Source of the DNA: Candidatus Omnitrophota bacterium
GTDB taxonomy: Bacteria > Omnitrophota > JACPQZ01
Reading direction: 5' to 3'
Length of the DNA stretch: 56,449 nt
Assembly (NCBI GenBank): GCA_016190205.1
Contig: JACPQZ010000033.1
Coordinates: 1 to 56,449, forward strand
Below the pieces are notes generated by a model. The model made no database searches. It was not told where the DNA came from and was given only the letters and a program-made list of their open reading frames with translations. The position numbers were made by a program, and so were the translations under genes. The first letter of the stretch is position 1, and each line of letters starts with the position of its first letter. Positions 6,985 to 41,056 of the stretch are shown here, piece after piece.

Positions 6985-7815
6985 ATGGAAATCCGCGATT
7001 TAGAAGAAAAGGCCCGTCGCGTTCGTCTGTCGGTTTTGGAAAGCATCGTGGCCAGCGGCAAGGGCCACATCGGGGGGACCTATTCCTGCACCGACCTCCT
7101 GGTGGCCCTCTATTATGCGGGGATTTTAAGATTCAATTTCCGTGACCCCCGGTGGCCAGACCGGGACCGGTTTCTGATCGGAAAGGGGCACGCCTGCCTT
7201 GCGCTTTATTCCATTTTTACGGACCTGGGGCTCCTTCCTGATGCGCGCTTTGATACTTACGGACAGGACGGCGGGTTGGGCGGTCAACTCGATACCTCCA
7301 TCCCCGGCGTCGAGTACAACACGGGTTCCTACGGCCATGTGTTGGGGATAGCTGCAGGCATTGCCCTCGCGGCCAAGATGGATCAGAAAAGCCTTAGGGC
7401 CTACGCACTCATGGGTGACGCGGAAATGTACGAGGGTTCGGTGTGGGAGGCCATTGTCTTTGCGGGTCACCACAAGCTGGACCGTTTGGTGGGTATCATA
7501 GACCGCAATCGCTTGTCGACGACGGACATGTTGGACGACGACAGCTTTTTCAAGGACTTCAAAGAAAAGATGCGTTCCTTTGACTGGGATTGTCATGAGT
7601 TCAACGGACATTCCTTCCCCGAAATCCTGGATGTGTTCGACCGAATCCGGAACGCCCTCCGGCCGGTTATGCTCATCGCCCATACCGTCAAGGGTAAGGG
7701 CATTTCATTCATGGAAAACGGCATCAAGTGGCATCATGGCGTTCCCACGGCCACAGAGGCCGAGCGCGCCAGGAGGGAGCTTGTGGGAAAGGATCAGGTA
7801 GCCCATGTCAGATAA
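6985..7815 (+). CDS. Transketolase, N-terminal (ThDP-binding) subunit
   Basis: At 276 residues this is the separate N-terminal half of a split transketolase. It shows GKGHIGG (25-31), IGKGHA (65-70) and the ThDP/Mg motif GDAEMYEGSVWEA (144-156) with DRN at 173-175. Together with the next gene it transfers a two-carbon ketol unit from a ketose phosphate to an aldose. In this setting it could make sedoheptulose 7-phosphate, the entry substrate for heptose synthesis, or transfer a ketol unit to a sugar to branch or lengthen it. Both roles are inference. The ATG follows AAAGGCGG and lies 9 bases after the ThDP enzyme gene. Its stop overlaps the next start by 11 bases, as expected for a pair made in equal amounts. 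Confidence 0.92.
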   Translation: MEIRDLEEKARRVRLSVLESIVASGKGHIGGTYSCTDLLVALYYAGILRFNFRDPRWPDRDRFLIGKGHACLALYSIFTDLGLLPDARFDTYGQDGGLGGQLDTSIPGVEYNTGSYGHVLGIAAGIALAAKMDQKSLRAYALMGDAEMYEGSVWEAIVFAGHHKLDRLVGIIDRNRLSTTDMLDDDSFFKDFKEKMRSFDWDCHEFNGHSFPEILDVFDRIRNALRPVMLIAHTVKGKGISFMENGIKWHHGVPTATEAERARRELVGKDQVAHVR

Positions 7816-8728
7816 AGACGTTCGGGATGCCTTCTTTGACGAAGTGTATACAATCGGAGGGCAGGATAAGGATTTCGTTTTCCTGACGGATGATATGGAT
7901 GCCTTCAGCCTGCGAAGGTTTAAACAGGATTTTCCCTCCCAGTTCGTCAACATTGGGGTGGCCGAGCAGAACATGATCAATCTAGCGGCGGGGTTGAGCC
8001 TCTGCGGAAAAAAAGTATTTGTCTATGGGATTGCTTCGTATGTGACCCTGCGCTGTTTTGAGCAGATCAAGGTAAACCTCTGCAGCATGAATATCCCCGT
8101 CACGATCATCGGCGTCGGGGCGGGCTTTTCGTTCAGCTTTGACGGGCCCACACACCACGGTACGCAGGATATCGCCGTCATGCGAACCCTCCCGGAGATT
8201 ACGCTCTATAATCCCAGCGACTCAAGCGCCGCCTCCCGCTGTGCCTGGCTTGCGTACGAAGGCAAGGGCCCGGTCTACGTGCGCTTGGAAAAGGGGGTAT
8301 ACCCTTCTCTGGGGTACGGGGAGGACGAGCTCGCGGATGGCTTTAAGATCGTGCGGCCCCTGCAAGGGCTCAATATCGTGAGTTCCGGGTTTATGACCCA
8401 TGAGGCCCTGCGCCTGGCGGAGGGGCTTAAGAAGCGGGACGTCCGGGCAGGGGTGGTGGATCTTTTTCGGTTAAAGCCCGTGCGTGAAACTTTTCTAGCG
8501 AAGGTGGTAGAAAAGTCCAAGGTGCTGGTTACGGTGGAAGACAATTCTCTTGTCGGCGGTATTGGAACGATCGTGGGAGAAATCCTGGCGGATGCCGGAG
8601 TTTCGATTCGACTGAAGAGGATCGGCGTTCGGGATAAACAGTTCTTGCATTACGGCAGCCGCGCGTGGCTTCACCAACTAAACGGTTTGGACGCGGAGAG
8701 CCTTTTGGCCTCCGTCTCTGGGACGTAG
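7805..8728 (+). CDS. Transketolase, C-terminal subunit
   Basis: This 307-residue partner of the preceding gene holds the pyrimidine-binding domain, with the activating glutamate E54 in GVAEQNM, the GPTHHGTQD loop near 114-122 that lines the active site, and the transketolase C-terminal domain from about residue 185. Split transketolases are common in archaea and many bacteria, and in secondary or surface sugar loci they can have specialised substrates. The coupling to the previous gene, with an 11-base overlap, supports a heteromeric enzyme. The family call is firm; whether it feeds sedoheptulose 7-phosphate or modifies an NDP-sugar cannot be told from sequence. Confidence 0.92.
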   Translation: MSDKDVRDAFFDEVYTIGGQDKDFVFLTDDMDAFSLRRFKQDFPSQFVNIGVAEQNMINLAAGLSLCGKKVFVYGIASYVTLRCFEQIKVNLCSMNIPVTIIGVGAGFSFSFDGPTHHGTQDIAVMRTLPEITLYNPSDSSAASRCAWLAYEGKGPVYVRLEKGVYPSLGYGEDELADGFKIVRPLQGLNIVSSGFMTHEALRLAEGLKKRDVRAGVVDLFRLKPVRETFLAKVVEKSKVLVTVEDNSLVGGIGTIVGEILADAGVSIRLKRIGVRDKQFLHYGSRAWLHQLNGLDAESLLASVSGT

Positions 8729-29985: not shown

Positions 29986-31131
29986 GTGGCGACCGCTCCA
30001 CTTGCGACAGACGCACGGACCCGGTATCGGGTTTCGTTTACCGATTTTCCGGTCCAGTTTGAGGTCCAGGCCCAGGAGATTCTCGAGGCGATTGAGAGGG
30101 TGCTCCGGCGGGGCGATTTTATACTGGGACGCGAGGTGAGGGAATTTGAGGCCGCCTTTGCAGAGCTTGCGGGGGCAAGGCATGCGATCGGGGTCGCGAA
30201 TGGAACAGATGCCCTGATGCTTGCGATGCGGGCGGTGGGGGTCGGCCGGGGGGATGAAGTCATCACGCCGCCCAACTCATGGATCTCGTCCACTTCAAGT
30301 ATTGTGCTCATCGGGGCGAGGCCGGTCTTTGCGGATGTGGGCCCCGATTTTAACATCGATCCCGAAAGGATTGAGGCGGCCATCACTCCGCGCACCAAGG
30401 TCCTGATGCCCGTGCATCTCACGGGACGGTGCGCCGATATGGATGCCATCAACGCGCTCGCCGAACGCCACGGCTTGGTCGTGGTCGAGGATGCGGCCCA
30501 GTCCGCCGGCGCTTGTTACCAGGGACGCCCATCCGGTTCCCTGGGTCATGTAGGCTGTTTCAGTCTGCATCCCCTCAAAAATTTGAGCGGCGTGGGGGAT
30601 GGAGGTGTGGTGACGACGAATGATGATGCGATTGCCGCCAGGGTGCGGTCGCTTTCCAATCACGGGCTCCGTACCCGCGGGGTGGTCGAGCGATGGGGTT
30701 TTAATTCGCGTCTCGATACCCTGCACGCAGCGGTCCTTTTCTGTCGTCTGAAAACGCTCTCGTCCGTGATCGAGGCACGCCGCAAGAACGCGGCCCGTTA
30801 TCGCATGATGCTGCCCCCGGCGGTCATGTGTCCCGATGAACGGCCGGGGGATTGCGAAATTTATCATCTTTTCATGATCCAATGTGACCGGCGCGATGAG
30901 CTCATGCGTTATTTGGATGAGCGCGGCATTGAGGCCTATGTTCATTATCCCACGCCGATTCATCTGCAGCCGGCGAGCCGCGATTTAGGGTATCGTGTGG
31001 GGGATTTTCCAAGCGCGGAGGCGCAGGCCCGGAGGATTCTCTCCCTTCCCGTGCATCAGGGGCTTTCCGCGGAGTCAATTGATTACGTCGTCAAAACCAT
31101 CACCCGGTTTTATCAAGGAGAAAAAAGGTGA
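29986..31131 (+). CDS. DegT-family sugar aminotransferase, second tandem copy
   Basis: This 381-residue DegT-family PLP enzyme starts at GTG; a TTG three codons earlier is also open. It has VANGTDALML, VVVEDAAQSAGA and the PLP lysine K198 in FSLHPLKNLSGVGDGG. The SGVGDGG ending of the lysine loop is the usual one in the family; in the upstream copy it is changed to NVWGDAG. Its stop overlaps the E1 alpha start as GTGA, and AAGGAG lies inside its last codons. The pair could make two amino groups in one diamino sugar, or act on two sugars (inference). Confidence 0.93.
   Translation: MATAPLATDARTRYRVSFTDFPVQFEVQAQEILEAIERVLRRGDFILGREVREFEAAFAELAGARHAIGVANGTDALMLAMRAVGVGRGDEVITPPNSWISSTSSIVLIGARPVFADVGPDFNIDPERIEAAITPRTKVLMPVHLTGRCADMDAINALAERHGLVVVEDAAQSAGACYQGRPSGSLGHVGCFSLHPLKNLSGVGDGGVVTTNDDAIAARVRSLSNHGLRTRGVVERWGFNSRLDTLHAAVLFCRLKTLSSVIEARRKNAARYRMMLPPAVMCPDERPGDCEIYHLFMIQCDRRDELMRYLDERGIEAYVHYPTPIHLQPASRDLGYRVGDFPSAEAQARRILSLPVHQGLSAESIDYVVKTITRFYQGEKR
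31115..31120 (+). promoter_or_regulatory. Ribosome binding site for E1 alpha
   Basis: AAGGAG lies 7 bases before the GTG at 31128, inside the end of the DegT gene. It supports that GTG as the E1 alpha start. Confidence 0.7.
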
Positions 31132-32111
31132 CCCCAAACGGGCCCGCATCCGATGAGAAGCGAGACCTTCTTTATGCCATGCTTCGGATCCGCAGACTCG
31201 AGGAAAGGATCAAGGAGCTGTATCCCCAACAGCGCATGCGGTGTCCTTGCCACCTGACCATCGGTCAGGAGGCGATCGCAGCGGGTGTGTGTGCACACCT
31301 GGGAAAGGGGGATAAGGTTTTTGGGACCTATCGGGGACACGGGATCTACCTTGCAAAGGGGGGAGGCCTGAATGCCCTCATGGCGGAATTATATGGGAAA
31401 GACACCGGTTGCACCTCGGGTCGAGGAGGATCGATGCAGCTCATCGCTCCGGAAGTGGGTTTTGTCTGCACCTCTGCGATAGTGGGCGGGACTCTACCCA
31501 TGGCAGTGGGGGCAGCCCTGTCCGCAAGGCTTCATCAGGCTCGAGAAATTGCATTGGTCTTTTTTGGGGATGGAGCCACCGAGGAAGGGGTTTTTCACGA
31601 GAGCATGAACTTCGCAGCTCTTAAAAAATTGCCTGTGGTCTTTGTGTGCGAAAATAATTTTTACTCATGTTATACGCACCAGCGCTTTCGTCAACCGCTG
31701 GACAATATTTATAAGCGCGCCGGCGTCTATGGCATGCCGGGGGACTGTGTGGACGGTAACAATGTCGTCGAGGTTTGGCAGGCAGCGCGTGAGGCGGTCG
31801 AGCGCGCCCGGGGAGGGGGAGGTCCTTCCCTCCTGGAGTGCCGGACCTACCGCTGGCTGGAGCATGTGGGCCCCCATGATGACACACATCTGGGTTACCG
31901 CAGCGAGGAAGAAGTTCGCCAGGGAAGAGAGGAGTGTCCGATTAAGCGGCTTCAAAGGGAGCTTCAAGCGGAGAATCTCATGACGCCCGAGAAGGTGGCG
32001 CGGTGGGAGGAAGGTATAGGGCGCGAGCTGGATCTTGCCGTCGCGTTTGCCGAGCAAAGCCCGTTCCCGGATGCACGGGATCTCGCGCGGGGCGTCTATG
32101 CGGGGGAATAA
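31128..32111 (+). CDS. ThDP-dependent E1 component alpha subunit
   Basis: This 327-residue protein matches pyruvate dehydrogenase/acetoin dehydrogenase E1 alpha. It has the substrate loop TYRGHGIYLAKG (67-78), GRGGSMQL, and the ThDP/Mg motif from GDGA (147-150) to ENN (175-177). With the beta subunit that follows it forms an enzyme that decarboxylates a 2-oxoacid and passes on the acyl or hydroxyalkyl group. No E2, E3 or lipoyl protein is near, so the acceptor may be a sugar. The AviB1/AviB2 E1 pair of avilamycin biosynthesis is the known precedent for adding a two-carbon branch. The location just after two sugar aminotransferases supports this, but it remains inference. Confidence 0.93.
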   Translation: MTPNGPASDEKRDLLYAMLRIRRLEERIKELYPQQRMRCPCHLTIGQEAIAAGVCAHLGKGDKVFGTYRGHGIYLAKGGGLNALMAELYGKDTGCTSGRGGSMQLIAPEVGFVCTSAIVGGTLPMAVGAALSARLHQAREIALVFFGDGATEEGVFHESMNFAALKKLPVVFVCENNFYSCYTHQRFRQPLDNIYKRAGVYGMPGDCVDGNNVVEVWQAAREAVERARGGGGPSLLECRTYRWLEHVGPHDDTHLGYRSEEEVRQGREECPIKRLQRELQAENLMTPEKVARWEEGIGRELDLAVAFAEQSPFPDARDLARGVYAGE

Positions 32112-32115
32112 GTTC

Positions 32116-33180
32116 ATGACGGCGAGATCCCTTACTTTTTGTGAAGCACTGCGGGAGGCGCAATTGCAGGCCATGCATGAAGATCCCTCGGTGATCCTCT
32201 TTGGGCTGGGCGTGGATGATCCCAGGGCGGTCTTCGGTTCAACCCTGGGACTCAAGCAGCGCTTTGGCGAGGATCGCGTGTTCGATATGCCGCTTTCCGA
32301 AAACGGAATGACGGGTGTCGCCGTAGGGGCGGCGCTGACCGGGATGCGTCCCGTGATGACACACCAGCGGCTTGATTTTACGTTATATGCCATGGATCAA
32401 ATCGTCAATCAGGCGGCCAAAAGGTGTTATTCCTCGGGAGGACGGCAAGCGGTCCCGCTCACGATACGAGCCATCGTGGGCCGGGGTTGGGGACAGGGAT
32501 CCCAGCACTCCCAGAGTCTTCAGGCCTGGTTTGCGCATATCCCGGGTCTCAAGGTGGTAATGCCGGCCACTCCGTATGATGCCAAGGGGCTTCTTCTCGC
32601 GGCCATACGAGATCCGAACCCGGTGATTGTGATCGAGTCGCGGAAGCTCTACGACGAGGTGGGGGAGGTTCCCGAAGAATCCTACACGGTTCCGATCGGT
32701 CAGGGAATCATCTGCCAGGAAGGACAAGACGTCACGGTTGTGGCGTTTTCCAATATGGTGAGTGAGGTCAAGCGTGCCCTGCCGGCCCTCGCCAATGCCG
32801 GAGTTCATGTGGAGCTTATTGACCCGCGTACGGCTAAGCCGCTCGATCGTAATCTCATCCTGGATTCGGTGCGAAAGACCGGCCGGCTCGTGGTGGTGGA
32901 TACCGGGTGGACATGTTGCGGAATCAGTGCGGAAGTAGCTGCCATCGCGGCCGAGCAGGCTTTCAGTTCGCTTAAGGCACCCATTCGCCGTGTGGCGCTT
33001 CCTGATATCCCCACCCCCACGAGTGCTGCGCTGGAGGCAGTCTTCTATCCAGGAGTGAAAGAGATTATCCAGGCCGTGTTCGATTGTATGGGGGTGGATG
33101 GGGCCGAAAGCGCTGCAGCAACGATGGTCTCTCAAACTCAATCCCCCATGGAACCCGAAACATTTAGAGGACCGTTTTAG
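32116..33180 (+). CDS. ThDP-dependent E1 component beta subunit
   Basis: This 354-residue E1 beta subunit pairs with the alpha gene 4 bases upstream. It has the activating glutamate E62 in PLSENGM, GWGQGSQHSQSLQAWF for the conserved histidine loop and a transketolase C-terminal domain. The open frame runs from 32035, but the ATG at 32116 gives the family N-terminus. It is a paralogue of the orphan at 9-1064: the two align over the whole length, and both end in F, K or R, then GPF. The shared terminal GPF is beyond the conserved fold and could be a contact surface. It ends 20 bases before the next gene. Confidence 0.93.
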   Translation: MTARSLTFCEALREAQLQAMHEDPSVILFGLGVDDPRAVFGSTLGLKQRFGEDRVFDMPLSENGMTGVAVGAALTGMRPVMTHQRLDFTLYAMDQIVNQAAKRCYSSGGRQAVPLTIRAIVGRGWGQGSQHSQSLQAWFAHIPGLKVVMPATPYDAKGLLLAAIRDPNPVIVIESRKLYDEVGEVPEESYTVPIGQGIICQEGQDVTVVAFSNMVSEVKRALPALANAGVHVELIDPRTAKPLDRNLILDSVRKTGRLVVVDTGWTCCGISAEVAAIAAEQAFSSLKAPIRRVALPDIPTPTSAALEAVFYPGVKEIIQAVFDCMGVDGAESAAATMVSQTQSPMEPETFRGPF

Positions 33181-35745: not shown

Positions 35746-36801
35746 GTGAAGGCGGCCGTTCTTAGGGTCCTGGGTCAACCGCTGGGTATCGAAGACTTGG
35801 AACCCCCCCCGCTTTCCAAGGGTCAGGTCCGCGTTGGCATGCAGCTGGCGGCGGTCTGTCATTCGCAGAAGCTCGAGGTGTCGGGCGGACGGGGTCCGGA
35901 TAACTTTCTACCGCACTTGATCGGGCATGAGGGGGTGGGTGTGGTTGAGGAGGTGGGGCCCGGCGTAACGAAGGTGGCTCGCGGTGATCAGGTGGTTTTA
36001 TCATGGATCAGGGGGTCGGGGTTGGAAGCGGTCCGTATCGTATACACTTCCGGCCGAGGGCCCGTTCAGGCTGGGCACATCGCGACGTTTTGCGAGTCTC
36101 CCGTCGTGTCGGAACAGTGTGTGACGCGGATTGATCCCGCGGTAGATCCGGAAATCGCTGTACTGGCAGGTTGCGCGATTCCGACAGGGGTGGGTACGGT
36201 CCTGAATGCCCGGATCGCGGATCCCAATGGGGCGGTGTGTATTTTGGGCGTCGGGGGAGTGGGCCTTGCGGCCGTGTGCGGTGCGCGGCTCGCCGGATGG
36301 GGTCAGGTGGCGGCCGCAGATTTGCGCTCTTCACGACTCGAGCGAGCCCGGGCGCTGGGGGCGACTCATACCCTTGAGGTCGGAGCAGAGGATATCGAGA
36401 AGAAAACAGCACGCATCACCGCCGGGCGGGGGTTTGACCTTGTGATTGAGTGTGCCGGTGCGAGAAGCTCGATGGAGCTTGCGGTGCGCCTTGCCAAGCC
36501 CAAAGGAGGGCATGTCGTTATTGTTGGAAATCTTAAGAGCGGCGAGACGTTCCAAGTGAATCCCATGCACTTGATTCAGGGGCGCTCGCTCACGGGCAGC
36601 TGGGGAGGGGGTGTCAATCCGGATGTGGACATTCCCCGGTTTGTACAGCTCATGGGAAACGGGAATGTGAATCACGAGCTTCTTGTAGGTAAACGGTTTT
36701 CCCTGGAGGAGGTGAACCATGCCATCCAGGCGCTCGAAGAGGACCCTCCGGGCAGGCCGATCCTCCATTTTGAACCGAACGAGAGGTCTTACCGGCCGTG
36801 A
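35746..36801 (+). CDS. Zinc-type medium-chain dehydrogenase lacking the structural zinc loop
   Basis: This 351-residue medium-chain dehydrogenase starts at GTG. The catalytic zinc ligands are visible: C38 in VCHSQKLE, H61 and E62 in GHEGVG, and C143 in AGCAIPTG. The nucleotide loop is LGVGGVGLAAVCGARL (168-183). The lobe that normally holds a second zinc with four closely spaced cysteines (about 88-120) contains no such cluster. Family members oxidise alcohols or reduce keto groups. In this locus it may act on a sugar or on a product of the ThDP enzymes. It is followed by a GTGA overlap. Confidence 0.85.
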   Translation: MKAAVLRVLGQPLGIEDLEPPPLSKGQVRVGMQLAAVCHSQKLEVSGGRGPDNFLPHLIGHEGVGVVEEVGPGVTKVARGDQVVLSWIRGSGLEAVRIVYTSGRGPVQAGHIATFCESPVVSEQCVTRIDPAVDPEIAVLAGCAIPTGVGTVLNARIADPNGAVCILGVGGVGLAAVCGARLAGWGQVAAADLRSSRLERARALGATHTLEVGAEDIEKKTARITAGRGFDLVIECAGARSSMELAVRLAKPKGGHVVIVGNLKSGETFQVNPMHLIQGRSLTGSWGGGVNPDVDIPRFVQLMGNGNVNHELLVGKRFSLEEVNHAIQALEEDPPGRPILHFEPNERSYRP

Positions 36802-37355
36802 TCGAACCGGTTTTTCTCTGCTGGGTCCTCGTCGTCCTGACCCTTTCGGCCCTGGCGGCTCTTCATGTGAAGGCATTGGCTTGGGCGCTCGGATCAGACA
36901 AACCGATTGCTTACCGCACGGCGGCGTTTCTGGAGGGAAGCATGCTGGTGGCAGGACCTTGGTTCCTCTGGGGATTGCTGGGGCTCTTCTCTGATGGGCG
37001 GGCTGTGGGGATCCGGATTCCGCTTCATCTGCGGGTGGGCAGCATTTTCTTGTACGGGGCAGGATGTTTGGTCTATGTCGAGCTTCGCTCATTGCTCTCT
37101 AGAGGGTACTCCTTCCGGATTTTGCTGGATCTCCTCAAGTCCGGCGGGGAACTTGCGAAGAAAGACTTGATCGTCCGTTACGGAAACGGCAGGGGGCTTC
37201 GCGGTCTGTTGGCTAAACGATTGGGGTCACTCGCCCGTTTGGGTTTGCTGCGTATGGAAGGGCCCCGCGCGGGTTCCCTGACACCGATCGGGCGGGGTGC
37301 GGCTGGGATCGGTTGGGCGATGCGCCGGCTCCTGCGCTTAACGTCGGTAGGCTAG
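36798..37355 (+). CDS. Small membrane protein with winged-helix-like C-terminus, unknown function
   Basis: I do not recognise this 185-residue protein. It starts at GTG and has three hydrophobic segments at about 4-27, 47-66 and 76-98. It then has a soluble, very basic tail from 105 to 185 whose pattern (LLKSGGELAKKDLIVRYG, LARLGLLR, then SLTPIGRG) is like a winged helix with helix, recognition helix and wing. The next gene has the same layout. Its neighbours are a dehydrogenase and, further on, a methyltransferase, a GT2 and a GT-C-like protein. It may anchor a complex or sense a state at the membrane (speculation). Confidence 0.75.
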   Translation: MIEPVFLCWVLVVLTLSALAALHVKALAWALGSDKPIAYRTAAFLEGSMLVAGPWFLWGLLGLFSDGRAVGIRIPLHLRVGSIFLYGAGCLVYVELRSLLSRGYSFRILLDLLKSGGELAKKDLIVRYGNGRGLRGLLAKRLGSLARLGLLRMEGPRAGSLTPIGRGAAGIGWAMRRLLRLTSVG

Positions 37356-37360
37356 GAGGG
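37354..37360 (+). promoter_or_regulatory. Ribosome binding site for the GTG at 37365
   Basis: AGGAGGG lies 4 bases before the GTG and overlaps the stop of the previous gene. It confirms translation of the small membrane gene that follows. Confidence 0.7.
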
Positions 37361-37364
37361 TAAG

Positions 37365-37862
37365 GTGGATAACGGTATTTGGATTTCTGTACTGGCCGGA
37401 ATCACCGTCTTTCTCGCGCTGCATGTGATTCTATGGCGTTCTATGCCTTCCGATAACCCAAGGATGGTTCTCTTGAGCGGGCTCGCGCTCGTGGGAATGG
37501 GGGTATCGCTGGGGATCGCCTCGATCGGGGCGCGCCCGGACGCCGCCCGGCTTTGCTCGGTCTTGTGGATCGATGCCTTCTGGATTATTTTGTATTTCTT
37601 TGTTTATGCCGGTTTGGCGCGTTCGGTATCCCTCACCTGCCTGGTACACATGCTGCGGTCAGGAGGGGACCCTGTGGATTTTGAGGCGCTCGTGGATGAA
37701 TATGCCCGGTCCAGCCGTTTTGAGGAAAGGATCCGTCTGATGCGCGCGCGCGGCCTGATCCGGCAGACGAACGGATCCGTATCTCTCACGCGCGGGGGAC
37801 GGCGCCTCGCCCTTGCGGTGGACGGGCTGGGACATGTCCTCAACGCCCGTTTGGAGGGATAG
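37365..37862 (+). CDS. Small membrane protein with winged-helix-like C-terminus, partner of the previous gene
   Basis: This is a 165-residue protein of unknown function. Three hydrophobic segments lie at about 5-24, 34-54 and 68-88, followed by a charged tail from 93 to 165. The tail follows the same pattern as its upstream neighbour: MLRSGGDPVDFEALVDEYA, a basic helix, RARGLIR and then a GSVSLTRGGRR hairpin. The two genes look like diverged copies, 9 bases apart. A GTG start with a strong AGGAGGG supports expression. Possible roles include a membrane-anchored regulator or a scaffold for the following transferase genes. None can be shown. Confidence 0.75.
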   Translation: MDNGIWISVLAGITVFLALHVILWRSMPSDNPRMVLLSGLALVGMGVSLGIASIGARPDAARLCSVLWIDAFWIILYFFVYAGLARSVSLTCLVHMLRSGGDPVDFEALVDEYARSSRFEERIRLMRARGLIRQTNGSVSLTRGGRRLALAVDGLGHVLNARLEG

Positions 37863-37863
37863 C

Positions 37864-38775
37864 ATGAAAGAGGGAGCCTGCCCCGTGTGCGGTCACGTCT
37901 CGCGCCGGAGAATCCTTTCACTGCGCGATTACGAAACGGATCATCAGGACCTGTTTGATCTGTATGAGTGCGGACAGTGCGGGCTCCTTTTTGTTCATCC
38001 ACAGCCTTCGTTTGATGCGCTCCGGAAATTTTATCCGGAGTTCTTCAGCTGTTATAACGAAAACCATTTTCCCGGGGCCCGCCTGCTTTGGCAGGTCTTG
38101 AGGAAACAGGAGATGCGCCGTCTAATGCGGTTTTTGCCTCCTTCCGGTTCAATTCTGGACGTGGGGTGTGCGGACGCCTCTTTTCTGGATATGCTCAAGG
38201 GGCGTGCAGCCCATCGCTACGGAATCGAGATGGACGATAAGATGGCGGAGCTGGCTGCTTCGCGTCTCGGCAAAGAAAATATCGTTCACGGCTTTCTGGA
38301 AACCGTCGATGCCCCTTTTCGTAATATCGATGTCGTGCGTATCAACCATGTCATCGAGCACTTTGCGGATCCCGTTCTCGCCTTGCGGAAGATCAACGGT
38401 TTTTTGAAGAAGGGCGGATACGTCGTCGGGGAGACGCCCAACGTGGATTGCCTGGATCGGCATCTATTCGGCCGCTTCTGGGGCGGTTATTCGGTGCCGA
38501 GGCATTTGTGTCTCTTCAGCCGCCGGTCGCTTGAAGAACTCTTCCGGCGTACCGGGTTTGAACTCATCCGCATGGAACCGCGTCTGATGACCTTGGGATG
38601 GTCGGGGGGGCTTCAAAACCTGTGCGTGCACCTTTTGAATTTACGCCCGCCCCACACCGGCCGCTTTCGCGGGTATCCGCTTTTTATCCTGATGACTCTT
38701 CCTTTTACGTTTCTGCAGTCCCTGTTAGGAAAGACCGGAGTCACCGGTTTTGTAGCCCGGCGGGTGAGTTCATGA
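37864..38775 (+). CDS. SAM-dependent methyltransferase with N-terminal zinc ribbon
   Basis: This 303-residue protein has a zinc-ribbon-like start (C6, C9, C36 and C39 in CPVC and CGQC), the SAM motif SILDVGCADASFL (96-108) and a Methyltransf_23 type core with INHVIEHFADP. The C-terminus has a hydrophobic stretch (YPLFILMTLPFTFLQSLLG) that may lie on the membrane. Such proteins occur beside GT2 and GT-C genes in polysaccharide loci and may methylate a lipid-linked sugar or cap a chain. The start is the ATG 1 base after the previous stop; the frame is open from 37813. Confidence 0.88.
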   Translation: MKEGACPVCGHVSRRRILSLRDYETDHQDLFDLYECGQCGLLFVHPQPSFDALRKFYPEFFSCYNENHFPGARLLWQVLRKQEMRRLMRFLPPSGSILDVGCADASFLDMLKGRAAHRYGIEMDDKMAELAASRLGKENIVHGFLETVDAPFRNIDVVRINHVIEHFADPVLALRKINGFLKKGGYVVGETPNVDCLDRHLFGRFWGGYSVPRHLCLFSRRSLEELFRRTGFELIRMEPRLMTLGWSGGLQNLCVHLLNLRPPHTGRFRGYPLFILMTLPFTFLQSLLGKTGVTGFVARRVSS

Positions 38776-39554
38776 CCCCAGGGGAAAATGGCGTGCGCCT
38801 TTCGTTTTTTGTGCCGTGTTTGAATGAAGAAGGCAACGTGGGCCGGACGATCGACACCATCGTACAAGTAATGAACGAGAGGGCGCATTCCTATGAGATC
38901 ATCGTGGTAGATGATGCCTCTGTGGATGGGTCAAAAGCGGAAGTCATGGACCGACGCGAGCGCCATCCGGGCGTGCGCATTGAGATCATCCAAAATCGCT
39001 TCGTGCGAGGCCTCGGACGCAACTATTTCATTGCGGCCCAGCGCGCCTCGGGCGAATATTTCATGCTGGTGAATGGGGATGCGGCTGAACCCGCCGAGTC
39101 TATCCGTACCCTCGTCTCGCAGCTGGGGTGTGCCGATGCCGTCGTGCCCTATTTTGGCCTGTATGAAAGCCGAACCTGGCCGCGGCGGTTTTTAAGCCGG
39201 TCGTTTACGTTTCTTGTCAATTTCTTGAGCGGCCACCGGTTGAAATATTATAACGGCCCTGTTCTGCACAGGACGGAGAATGTGCGGGTTTGGTTTTCGG
39301 AGACCGCCGGGTTTGCCTATCAGGCGGAGTTGCTCTGCAGGCTGTTGGATGAGGGGATTTCGGTGAAGGAAGTGCGGATCGCAAACAGCAGCCGGAACAG
39401 GGGCTTTTCCAAGGCCTTTACGATTTCGAACCTGCTTTCCGTCACCAATGCCCTTTTTCATATTATGTTGAGGCGTTTGGAAAAATTCTCTTTCAGGGTG
39501 CTTTTGAGAAACCAGAAGGAAGTGCGGAAAGAGGGAGCGGCATGGAAGTCTTGA
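38772..39554 (+). CDS. GT2-family glycosyltransferase with modified DxD
   Basis: This 260-residue GT-A transferase has LSFFVPCLNEEGNV (10-23) and VVDDASVDGS (45-54), as in polyprenyl-phosphate sugar transferases. The metal motif, normally DxD, reads NGD (N101, G102, D103), so the first aspartate is missing. There are no C-terminal membrane helices, unlike the GT2 at 49751. It overlaps the methyltransferase gene (ATGA) and the next membrane protein gene (13 bases). A natural role is to load a sugar onto polyprenyl phosphate for the GT-C-like protein that follows (inference). Confidence 0.85.
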   Translation: MTPGENGVRLSFFVPCLNEEGNVGRTIDTIVQVMNERAHSYEIIVVDDASVDGSKAEVMDRRERHPGVRIEIIQNRFVRGLGRNYFIAAQRASGEYFMLVNGDAAEPAESIRTLVSQLGCADAVVPYFGLYESRTWPRRFLSRSFTFLVNFLSGHRLKYYNGPVLHRTENVRVWFSETAGFAYQAELLCRLLDEGISVKEVRIANSSRNRGFSKAFTISNLLSVTNALFHIMLRRLEKFSFRVLLRNQKEVRKEGAAWKS

Positions 39555-41056
39555 ATAAACCTCGCGCATGGCTGGCCTTCCTTTTCTGTGCGGGGCTCCT
39601 GCATTGGCTCGTCTACTTTTACCTGGCCTATCCCGAAGGGGGAGACCGGGCCTGGATGGGACTCATCCATCAACCTCAACAGTGGTTTTCGGTTCGCGCG
39701 TTCGACGCCCATGACTGGTACAAAGATATCAATTTCCTGCGTGTGCTTAAGGAAGCCATCCGGACACGAACCCTTCCGTTCCACTCACCCGATTTGTCGG
39801 TTTGGGCGGCATCTCCCAATGGCAGCGATCGATTTCTGGCCACCCTGGTCTATCCTTGGTCGCCTCAGATTCTTTTGCTCTCGGTCCTGGGCCCTTCCGC
39901 TTTTATTCCGGTCAATCTCATGTTGATGTACGCGGTCGGATTCTGGGGCGCGCTCCTGCTTCGAAAGGTTTTCGGCCTGGGCGCGATGGCCTTCACATTT
40001 TTCTTTCTCATATTCAATTTTAACGGTTACTTTGTGACCAAGATCAGTGTGTATCCGAGCAGCATGTTCGGCTACTTTCTGATGCCCTTCTTTTTGTGGG
40101 CCGTGCTTCGATCCGCTGAGACGCCCCCGGCTGCGGTGAAGGAGCATGTCCGGTTGGGTGTGTTTCTTGGGTTGACCCTCGCGGGCATGGTTTATCAGGG
40201 CACATTCCATCTCTTTGTGGAATGCGTCACTTTTCTTTTTGTTTGGGTTATTTCTGATTTTAAGCGTTGGCGCGTTCCCATCGTTGCGTGCATCACCGCG
40301 GGGCTTACGGCGGCTGCACGTCTTTTGCCCGCCGTCGTTTCATTTGGGCCGGGGGCCAGCCCCCATGCCGGACAGGCGGGTTACCCCTCTCCCAACACGC
40401 TGGTGGAGGGGTTGACCGCCATTCGAACCCAGTTCGTACCTCCGTTGTTTTGCTGGCACGAGTATTCGCTCTACGTCAGCCTCATCGGAACCTATGCCCT
40501 GATATATTTCGGGCTGTGGGGACCCTTTATGCGTTCCGACTGGGTGCGGTTTCATGGATGGCGTGCTGTGTGGATCCCGTGCGCCGTGCTGCTGGTCATC
40601 TCGTGCGGCTATCTCAAGCTTTACATTATCCCAAACTGGATTCCTCTCCTGAATGCCGAATCTGTCAAGACACGCTACATGATCATTCCGCTTCTCATGG
40701 TCGCTGCGATTGCATCGATCAACCTGCAGGGTTTCTTGAAAAAATATGGATCCGTCCAACGAGTCAAGGCCCTTATCGCAGCGGCAGGGGCGGGGCTCGC
40801 GTACTTCCTCTTTAACAACACGCGGGTTTGGAGGATGCACAAGATTCAGGTGGAATATGATCAGGCGGTGACGAGCGGGTTAACCCCTCCGAGCCCCGAG
40901 ATTTGGCCGCAGATCCAAAATGAGCTGTCTGATACGGTTTATATCCAGGCGTTTTGGGTGGGGTGCGCCGTCTCTCTGTGTGCGCTTGTTTTTCTGACGG
41001 CTGCGTGGATCCGTCAAAGAAAGGCGCGGCACGAGCAGGGGGTTCAGCCCTCGTGA
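39542..41056 (+). CDS. Polytopic membrane protein, GT-C-like
   Basis: This 504-residue integral membrane protein has about ten hydrophobic helices. A first loop after the signal-like helix contains acidic residues (FDAHDWYKDINFLRVL) and a TLPFHSPDL segment, the arrangement seen in GT-C glycosyltransferases that use polyprenyl-phosphate sugars at the outer face of the membrane. I see no exact family signature, so a flippase-like or polymerase-like role is also possible. It is coupled to the GT2 gene before it, a common pairing of sugar loader and GT-C enzyme. It ends in a GTGA overlap with the phosphatase gene. Confidence 0.8.
   Translation: MEVLNKPRAWLAFLFCAGLLHWLVYFYLAYPEGGDRAWMGLIHQPQQWFSVRAFDAHDWYKDINFLRVLKEAIRTRTLPFHSPDLSVWAASPNGSDRFLATLVYPWSPQILLLSVLGPSAFIPVNLMLMYAVGFWGALLLRKVFGLGAMAFTFFFLIFNFNGYFVTKISVYPSSMFGYFLMPFFLWAVLRSAETPPAAVKEHVRLGVFLGLTLAGMVYQGTFHLFVECVTFLFVWVISDFKRWRVPIVACITAGLTAAARLLPAVVSFGPGASPHAGQAGYPSPNTLVEGLTAIRTQFVPPLFCWHEYSLYVSLIGTYALIYFGLWGPFMRSDWVRFHGWRAVWIPCAVLLVISCGYLKLYIIPNWIPLLNAESVKTRYMIIPLLMVAAIASINLQGFLKKYGSVQRVKALIAAAGAGLAYFLFNNTRVWRMHKIQVEYDQAVTSGLTPPSPEIWPQIQNELSDTVYIQAFWVGCAVSLCALVFLTAAWIRQRKARHEQGVQPS

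Follow-up and report, generated by a model that had tools for sequence, protein, structure and literature searches.

A conserved tandem pair of small membrane proteins with predicted winged-helix tails, a candidate membrane partner of a soluble GT2 in Omnitrophota and other bacteria

Introduction

What might two adjacent, similarly built membrane proteins with winged-helix-like tails do in the middle of a glycan operon? This question is raised by a contig of 56,449 nt (hereafter the window) from an Omnitrophota bacterium with a 1.65-Mb genome. An earlier note on this DNA, made from the sequence alone, had claimed two such proteins, P1 and P2, in adjacent open reading frames at 36798-37862, and both frames are present there:

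36798..37355, forward strand: P1, GTG start, 185 aa, three predicted transmembrane (TM) helices (4-30, 36-64, 76 onward) and a predicted C-terminal winged helix (about 100-178)
37365..37862, forward strand: P2, GTG start, 165 aa, three predicted TM helices (3-26, 34-54, 60-86) and a predicted C-terminal winged helix (88-159)

Results

Architecture of the two proteins

Kyte-Doolittle hydropathy agrees with the three hydrophobic segments claimed for each protein (best 19-mers 2.44, 1.36 and 1.43 in P1; 2.43, 2.12 and 1.96 in P2). The tail order described in the earlier note, L(K/R)SGG, a helix, (R/L)GL(I/L)R and then a glycine-rich hairpin, can likewise be read in both sequences, as LKSGG...LGLLR...G in P1 and LRSGG...RGLIR...G in P2. 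Good ribosome sites had been ascribed to both genes; this holds for P2, which has a strong AGGAGGG 4-5 nt ahead of its GTG, but P1 has only a weaker AGAGG about 11 nt upstream. The GTG of P1 overlaps the stop of the preceding gene, an arrangement that resembles translational coupling.

The winged-helix tails, whose absence from predicted structures had been set beforehand as grounds for giving up the claim, were predicted in both proteins. AlphaFold2 models based on alignments of relatives comprise three long helices and a winged helix, with a mean pLDDT of 90.8 and a pTM of 0.77 for P2 (tail helices 88-98, 106-112 and 117-128, strands 132-135 and 138-141, helix 143-159). For P1 these values are 85.0 and 0.70 (tail helices to 114, 121-129 and 135-147, a short beta wing, helix 163-178), with an alignment that was put together partly by gene position, P1 not being a clear member of family A (see below). 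Both modelled tails have the three helices, beta wing and C-terminal helix of a winged helix, and we are confident in this predicted fold. For both P1 and P2, Foldseek against the PDB ranks winged-helix proteins first (MarR, DtxR, YodB, OhrR and N-terminal domains of O-methyltransferases); the match probabilities are often high, but the E-values are weak (best 0.04 for P2 and 0.29 for P1 at full length, none <= 0.001). The family B profile also reaches 3df8, an HxlR winged helix (E 9e-4). No family in Pfam or NCBIfam covers P1 or P2.

The operon in the window

The glycan-operon setting described earlier, with methyltransferase, GT2 and polytopic GT-C-like neighbours, is borne out. An alcohol-dehydrogenase-like gene, P1, P2 and these three genes form a tightly packed operon, in which stops and starts overlap or lie a few bases apart. 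The neighbours of the pair are:

35746..36801, forward strand: Zn-dependent alcohol-dehydrogenase-like gene, its stop overlapping the P1 start
37864..38775, forward strand: SAM-dependent methyltransferase (Methyltransf_23), zinc-ribbon-like near its N-terminus
38772..39554, forward strand: TM-less GT2, apparently of the DPMS/GtrB/ArnC class, belonging to the pair-linked GT2 subfamily (A5 profile, 277 bits)
39542..41056, forward strand: polytopic membrane protein, 504 aa, 8 hydrophobic segments

A similar alcohol dehydrogenase adjoins the pair in G156. The start of the GT2 was assigned by the ATGA that it would share with the stop of the methyltransferase. The 504-aa protein has no Pfam match and is probably an unclassified GT-C glycosyltransferase that would use a lipid-linked sugar.

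Distribution of the pair

Of 285 Omnitrophota genomes searched by sequence and profile, about 37 carry tandem pairs of the superfamily once chance hits are discounted. The motif E[AV]DSP[ST]L, scanned against named genomes, yielded 46 loci, and a scan of named genomes with the single P2 sequence gave no match. Metagenome-assembled genomes (MAGs) with the motif are labelled Nitrospirae/Thermodesulfovibrionales, Deltaproteobacteria, Elusimicrobia, Planctomycetota, Nitrospinae and Lentisphaeria; single ones labelled Levybacteria, Woesearchaeota and Nitrosomonadaceae could be binning errors. The partner gene is the immediate neighbour at 69 of 73 non-redundant loci and no more than seven genes away at 71, and the start and stop of the pair members are mostly within about 10 bases of each other or overlap. 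In the canonical order the first position is held by the B type (family B) and the second by family A, and some pairs stand alone between genes on the opposite strand (L185, L201). A scan of viral contigs with the conserved B motif revealed no relative and no phage link, and the largely open-access literature searched contained no description of the pair. The pair is real, conserved and without a family name in the libraries searched.

Relationship between P1 and P2

The two proteins had been taken for diverged copies. BLASTP of the two sequences alone finds only a marginal resemblance (26% identity, E 0.016), whereas profile-profile comparison of P1-type with P2-type proteins from window-type pairs only reaches E 5.9e-10 with three sequences each and E 8e-5 with two each; the lowest E-value of the reversed-sequence controls was 0.004. 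Against family B, P1 compares at E 7.6e-12 and P2 at E 1e-16, and the large A and B family profiles match each other at E 7e-20. To judge from these comparisons, in which reversed controls fail, P1 and P2 are diverged homologous copies; the lack of a profile relationship, the other ground named for giving up the claim, was not observed.

With clean profiles P1 scores 17.7 bits against B versus 9.8 against A, and P2 41 versus 12. Membership of P1 in family A, the second-position family, was dropped because both proteins are closest to B. The ortholog of P1 in G156 (44% identity, E 4e-22) adjoins the ortholog of P2. In a joint tree the window and G156 pairs fall outside both main clades, A and B, with weak support (0.68), in a group that also takes in one G265 protein, and L098, L102 and L111 form a second set. 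These separate groups suggest that tandem duplication may have happened more than once.

The pair-linked GT2 subfamily

The commonest neighbour of the pair is a GT2 subfamily (Pfam Glycos_transf_2), which is encoded within seven genes in 53 of the 73 loci and directly upstream in 19. Whether relatives of the pair have the same neighbours had been put forward as a check; the GT2 recurs beside them, but the methyltransferase of the window is not a conserved partner. In phmmer searches of the PDB the pair-linked GT2 matched DPMS (5mlz, E 1e-5), GtrB (sll0501, E 5e-7) and ArnC (9hwj, E 2e-4), and it appears to be related to this class, with putative lipid-phosphate chemistry. Subfamily members near the pair have a best 19-mer Kyte-Doolittle value of 0.9-1.8, compared to 2.5-3.1 in TM-bearing GT2s, some of which occur in the same loci; the window GT2, at 1.38, is likewise without a TM segment.

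When searched for across the phylum, the subfamily stands clearly apart (members at least 200 bits, next match 167). In the 285-genome sample it occurs in 31 of 37 pair-bearing genomes versus 23 of 248 others (Fisher p 5e-21), an association that is partly circular as the GT2 profile was built from pair-linked GT2s. Six pair-bearing genomes have no GT2 match. In the 23 genomes with the GT2 subfamily outside this set, a profile search found no convincing pair member anywhere, and the GT2s examined in pair-less genomes also look TM-less. The proposition that the GT2 always needs the pair was therefore rejected; the pair is not obligatory for the GT2, and anchoring is not essential in general. 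In the window, the GT2 is the candidate functional partner of P1 and P2.

Two composite frames were observed among these genes. At L108:1474-2958 (reverse strand) a pair-linked GT2 is apparently fused behind a sugar nucleotidyltransferase-like domain, as read from the sequence, which would suit an NDP-sugar donor for the GT2. At L014:10512-13385, G156, a single open frame joins a GT2 to an ABC-transporter-like protein and is either a fusion or a frame artefact.

Fusions, topology and conserved residues

Two genomes, which belong to different families, each encode an A-family member that continues at its C-terminus into GtrA_DPMS_TM (PF04138; E 5e-19 and 1e-16):

L099:6404-7348: A-family protein with PF04138 as an extra domain
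L101:9679-10629: A-family protein with PF04138 as an extra domain

K/R residues are more frequent in loop 1 than in loop 2 in 132 of 144 proteins, with the reverse in two, and by the positive-inside rule this excess would place the winged helix in the cytoplasm. Conservation is strongest at the membrane-cytoplasm junction (EADSPSL in B, ETARRIR in A) and at the TM residues H18, W22 and Y83 of B, a pattern that would be unexpected for a mere tether. Within the tail, the most conserved positions include one recognition-helix arginine common to A and B and a wing glycine of B.

Most canonical B members end in Gly-Gly, frequently as Lys-Gly-Gly (e.g., L087:9396-9872 and L091:9054-9530), with the last glycine at 88%; P2 of the window ends in Glu-Gly. 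As an explanation of this ending, a by-product of the Shine-Dalgarno sequence of the next gene accounts for it at most in part, since the first codon is mostly GGC and not GGA.

Discussion

Anatomy, linkage and fusion are the basis on which we tentatively propose that P1 and P2 are the paired membrane partner of a soluble polyprenyl-phosphate-sugar synthase, comparable to DPM1 with DPM2/DPM3, and that their winged helices serve for docking; we prefer this reading while holding it with considerable doubt. P1 and P2 would associate with each other in the cytoplasmic membrane, probably as a heterodimer, with their N-termini outside and their winged helices in the cytoplasm. The pair would bind the soluble GT2 encoded two genes downstream, which would make a polyprenyl-phosphate-linked sugar, and would hold or position it at the membrane, close to its lipid substrate and to the downstream GT-C, to which the lipid-linked sugar may then be handed over. 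The arrangement of type-II DPMS would thereby have been reached with differently built proteins, the winged helices acting as protein-docking modules.

Human DPM1 has no TM helices and associates with DPM2 and DPM3, which are 80-90 aa long with two TM helices each (PMC5526996). The window resembles this type-II arrangement in that a TM-less GT2 of the DPMS class is encoded with two small membrane proteins, beside putative GT-C type users of the lipid-linked sugar. Compared with DPM2 and DPM3 as described there, however, P1 and P2 are longer (185 and 165 aa), each combine three TM helices with a winged helix, and are homologues of one another. If the proposal holds, P1 and P2 would work like the membrane module of type-II DPMS without being members of DPM2 or DPM3. 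A second precedent is Ppm1 of Mycobacterium smegmatis, a polyprenyl-phosphate-mannose synthase that interacts with a separate membrane protein, Ppm2, encoded alongside (PMC3460810); Ppm2, however, is an Lnt-type acyltransferase and not a small winged-helix protein. PfDPMS deprived of its TM domain still makes product, and 80% of it still goes to the membrane (PMC5526996); a separate anchor may thus be superfluous. In favour of a GT2 partnership we count the conservation of the pair, its linkage to the GT2, the TM-less DPMS class of that enzyme, the GtrA_DPMS_TM fusions, the predicted cytoplasmic winged helix, the conserved junction and TM residues, and these precedents. Against it we count the 23 genomes with the GT2 and no pair, the active TM-less PfDPMS, the six pair-bearing genomes without the GT2, and the solitary pairs.

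The tails could instead read DNA, in which case the pair would be membrane-embedded one-component transcription regulators that sense the state of the envelope or lipid carrier and control the glycan operon, a reading that we consider unlikely. The tails resemble the winged helices of HxlR, MarR, DtxR and Sso10a and are net positive on average (+5.9 in A, +3.4 in B), and the recognition helix of P1 is arginine-rich. Membrane regulators are moreover widespread; 27% have more than two TM regions and some have an associated protein (PMC10269533). The turn and N-terminal half of the recognition helix of B, however, are net negative in 50 of 65 proteins. This acidity speaks against DNA reading, though it is not decisive for the window, as the helix is near neutral in family A and that of P1 has its arginines. 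The genes are also usually located mid-operon, overlapping enzyme genes, many of the most conserved positions are within the membrane or at its interface, and the A-family fusions join a membrane domain of the polyprenyl-phosphate-sugar type. In ToxR and CadC the DNA-binding domain is N-terminal and there is a single TM helix. Like these regulators, which sometimes act with a partner protein, P1 and P2 combine a membrane protein with a winged helix; unlike them, they are predicted to cross the membrane three times and to carry the winged helix at the C-terminus, and no Pfam or NCBIfam DNA-binding model matches P1 or P2 above cut-off, though the winged-helix fold is predicted. The evidence leans towards tails that dock proteins rather than bind DNA.

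The docked protein need not be the GT2. In 40 of 73 loci a radical-SAM/SPASM gene lies no more than seven genes from the pair, and in 13 such a gene immediately precedes B. Some B members show a weak match (E 0.0019) to HemN_C, a winged helix that belongs to a radical-SAM enzyme, and GT-C-like genes often follow the pair directly. On this reading, which seems to us quite improbable, the pair would serve at the membrane as scaffold or assembly factor of another enzyme of the cluster, either the adjacent SPASM radical-SAM protein or the GT-C. Radical-SAM linkage is weaker than that to the GT2, no radical-SAM gene adjoins the pair in the window, the GtrA fusion points to the lipid-sugar step, and the cassette of radical-SAM genes and GT2 appears to occur without the pair. 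This cassette recurs across these phyla, with or without the pair, as two SPASM radical-SAM genes, alpha and beta genes of an E1-type dehydrogenase (or a split transketolase) and a TM-less GT2, often with RfaE- and SIS-like genes added (L087:4418-9399, L096, L143, L147 and further loci); similar genes lie in the window at 31128-33180 and 6985-8728.

GtrB-class GT2 and GT-C genes, to both of which the pair is linked, are the usual setting of GtrA, and family A has two gtrA_1 matches that could come from the fused proteins, but a flippase- or carrier-like role of the pair itself, with accessory winged helices, is very unlikely, given that the fusions carry a complete GtrA domain beside the A domain, which A hence does not replace, and that no relation of P1 or P2 to GtrA (PF04138) was found with Pfam. 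The likeness to GtrA/GtrB and type-III DPMS thus extends to the GT2 class and the two fused relatives, while P1 and P2 differ in having three TM helices, not the four of GtrA, plus a winged helix.

We therefore return to P1 and P2 as the membrane partner of the GT2. Its broader form, a widespread bacterial analogue of type-II DPMS, absent from the libraries and papers searched, in which a duplicated three-TM pair has winged helices recruited from DNA binding to enzyme docking, we advance with slightly greater reserve. Even if this mechanism is wrong, annotation clearly has a gap where a tandem pair that stays together at 69 of 73 loci from these phyla lacks a family name. If it is true, a TM-less class of bacterial sugar-lipid synthases would have a conserved membrane partner, winged helices would be used as membrane-side docking modules, and Pfam-less genes in Omnitrophota, Nitrospirae, Deltaproteobacteria, Elusimicrobia and others would gain a testable role.
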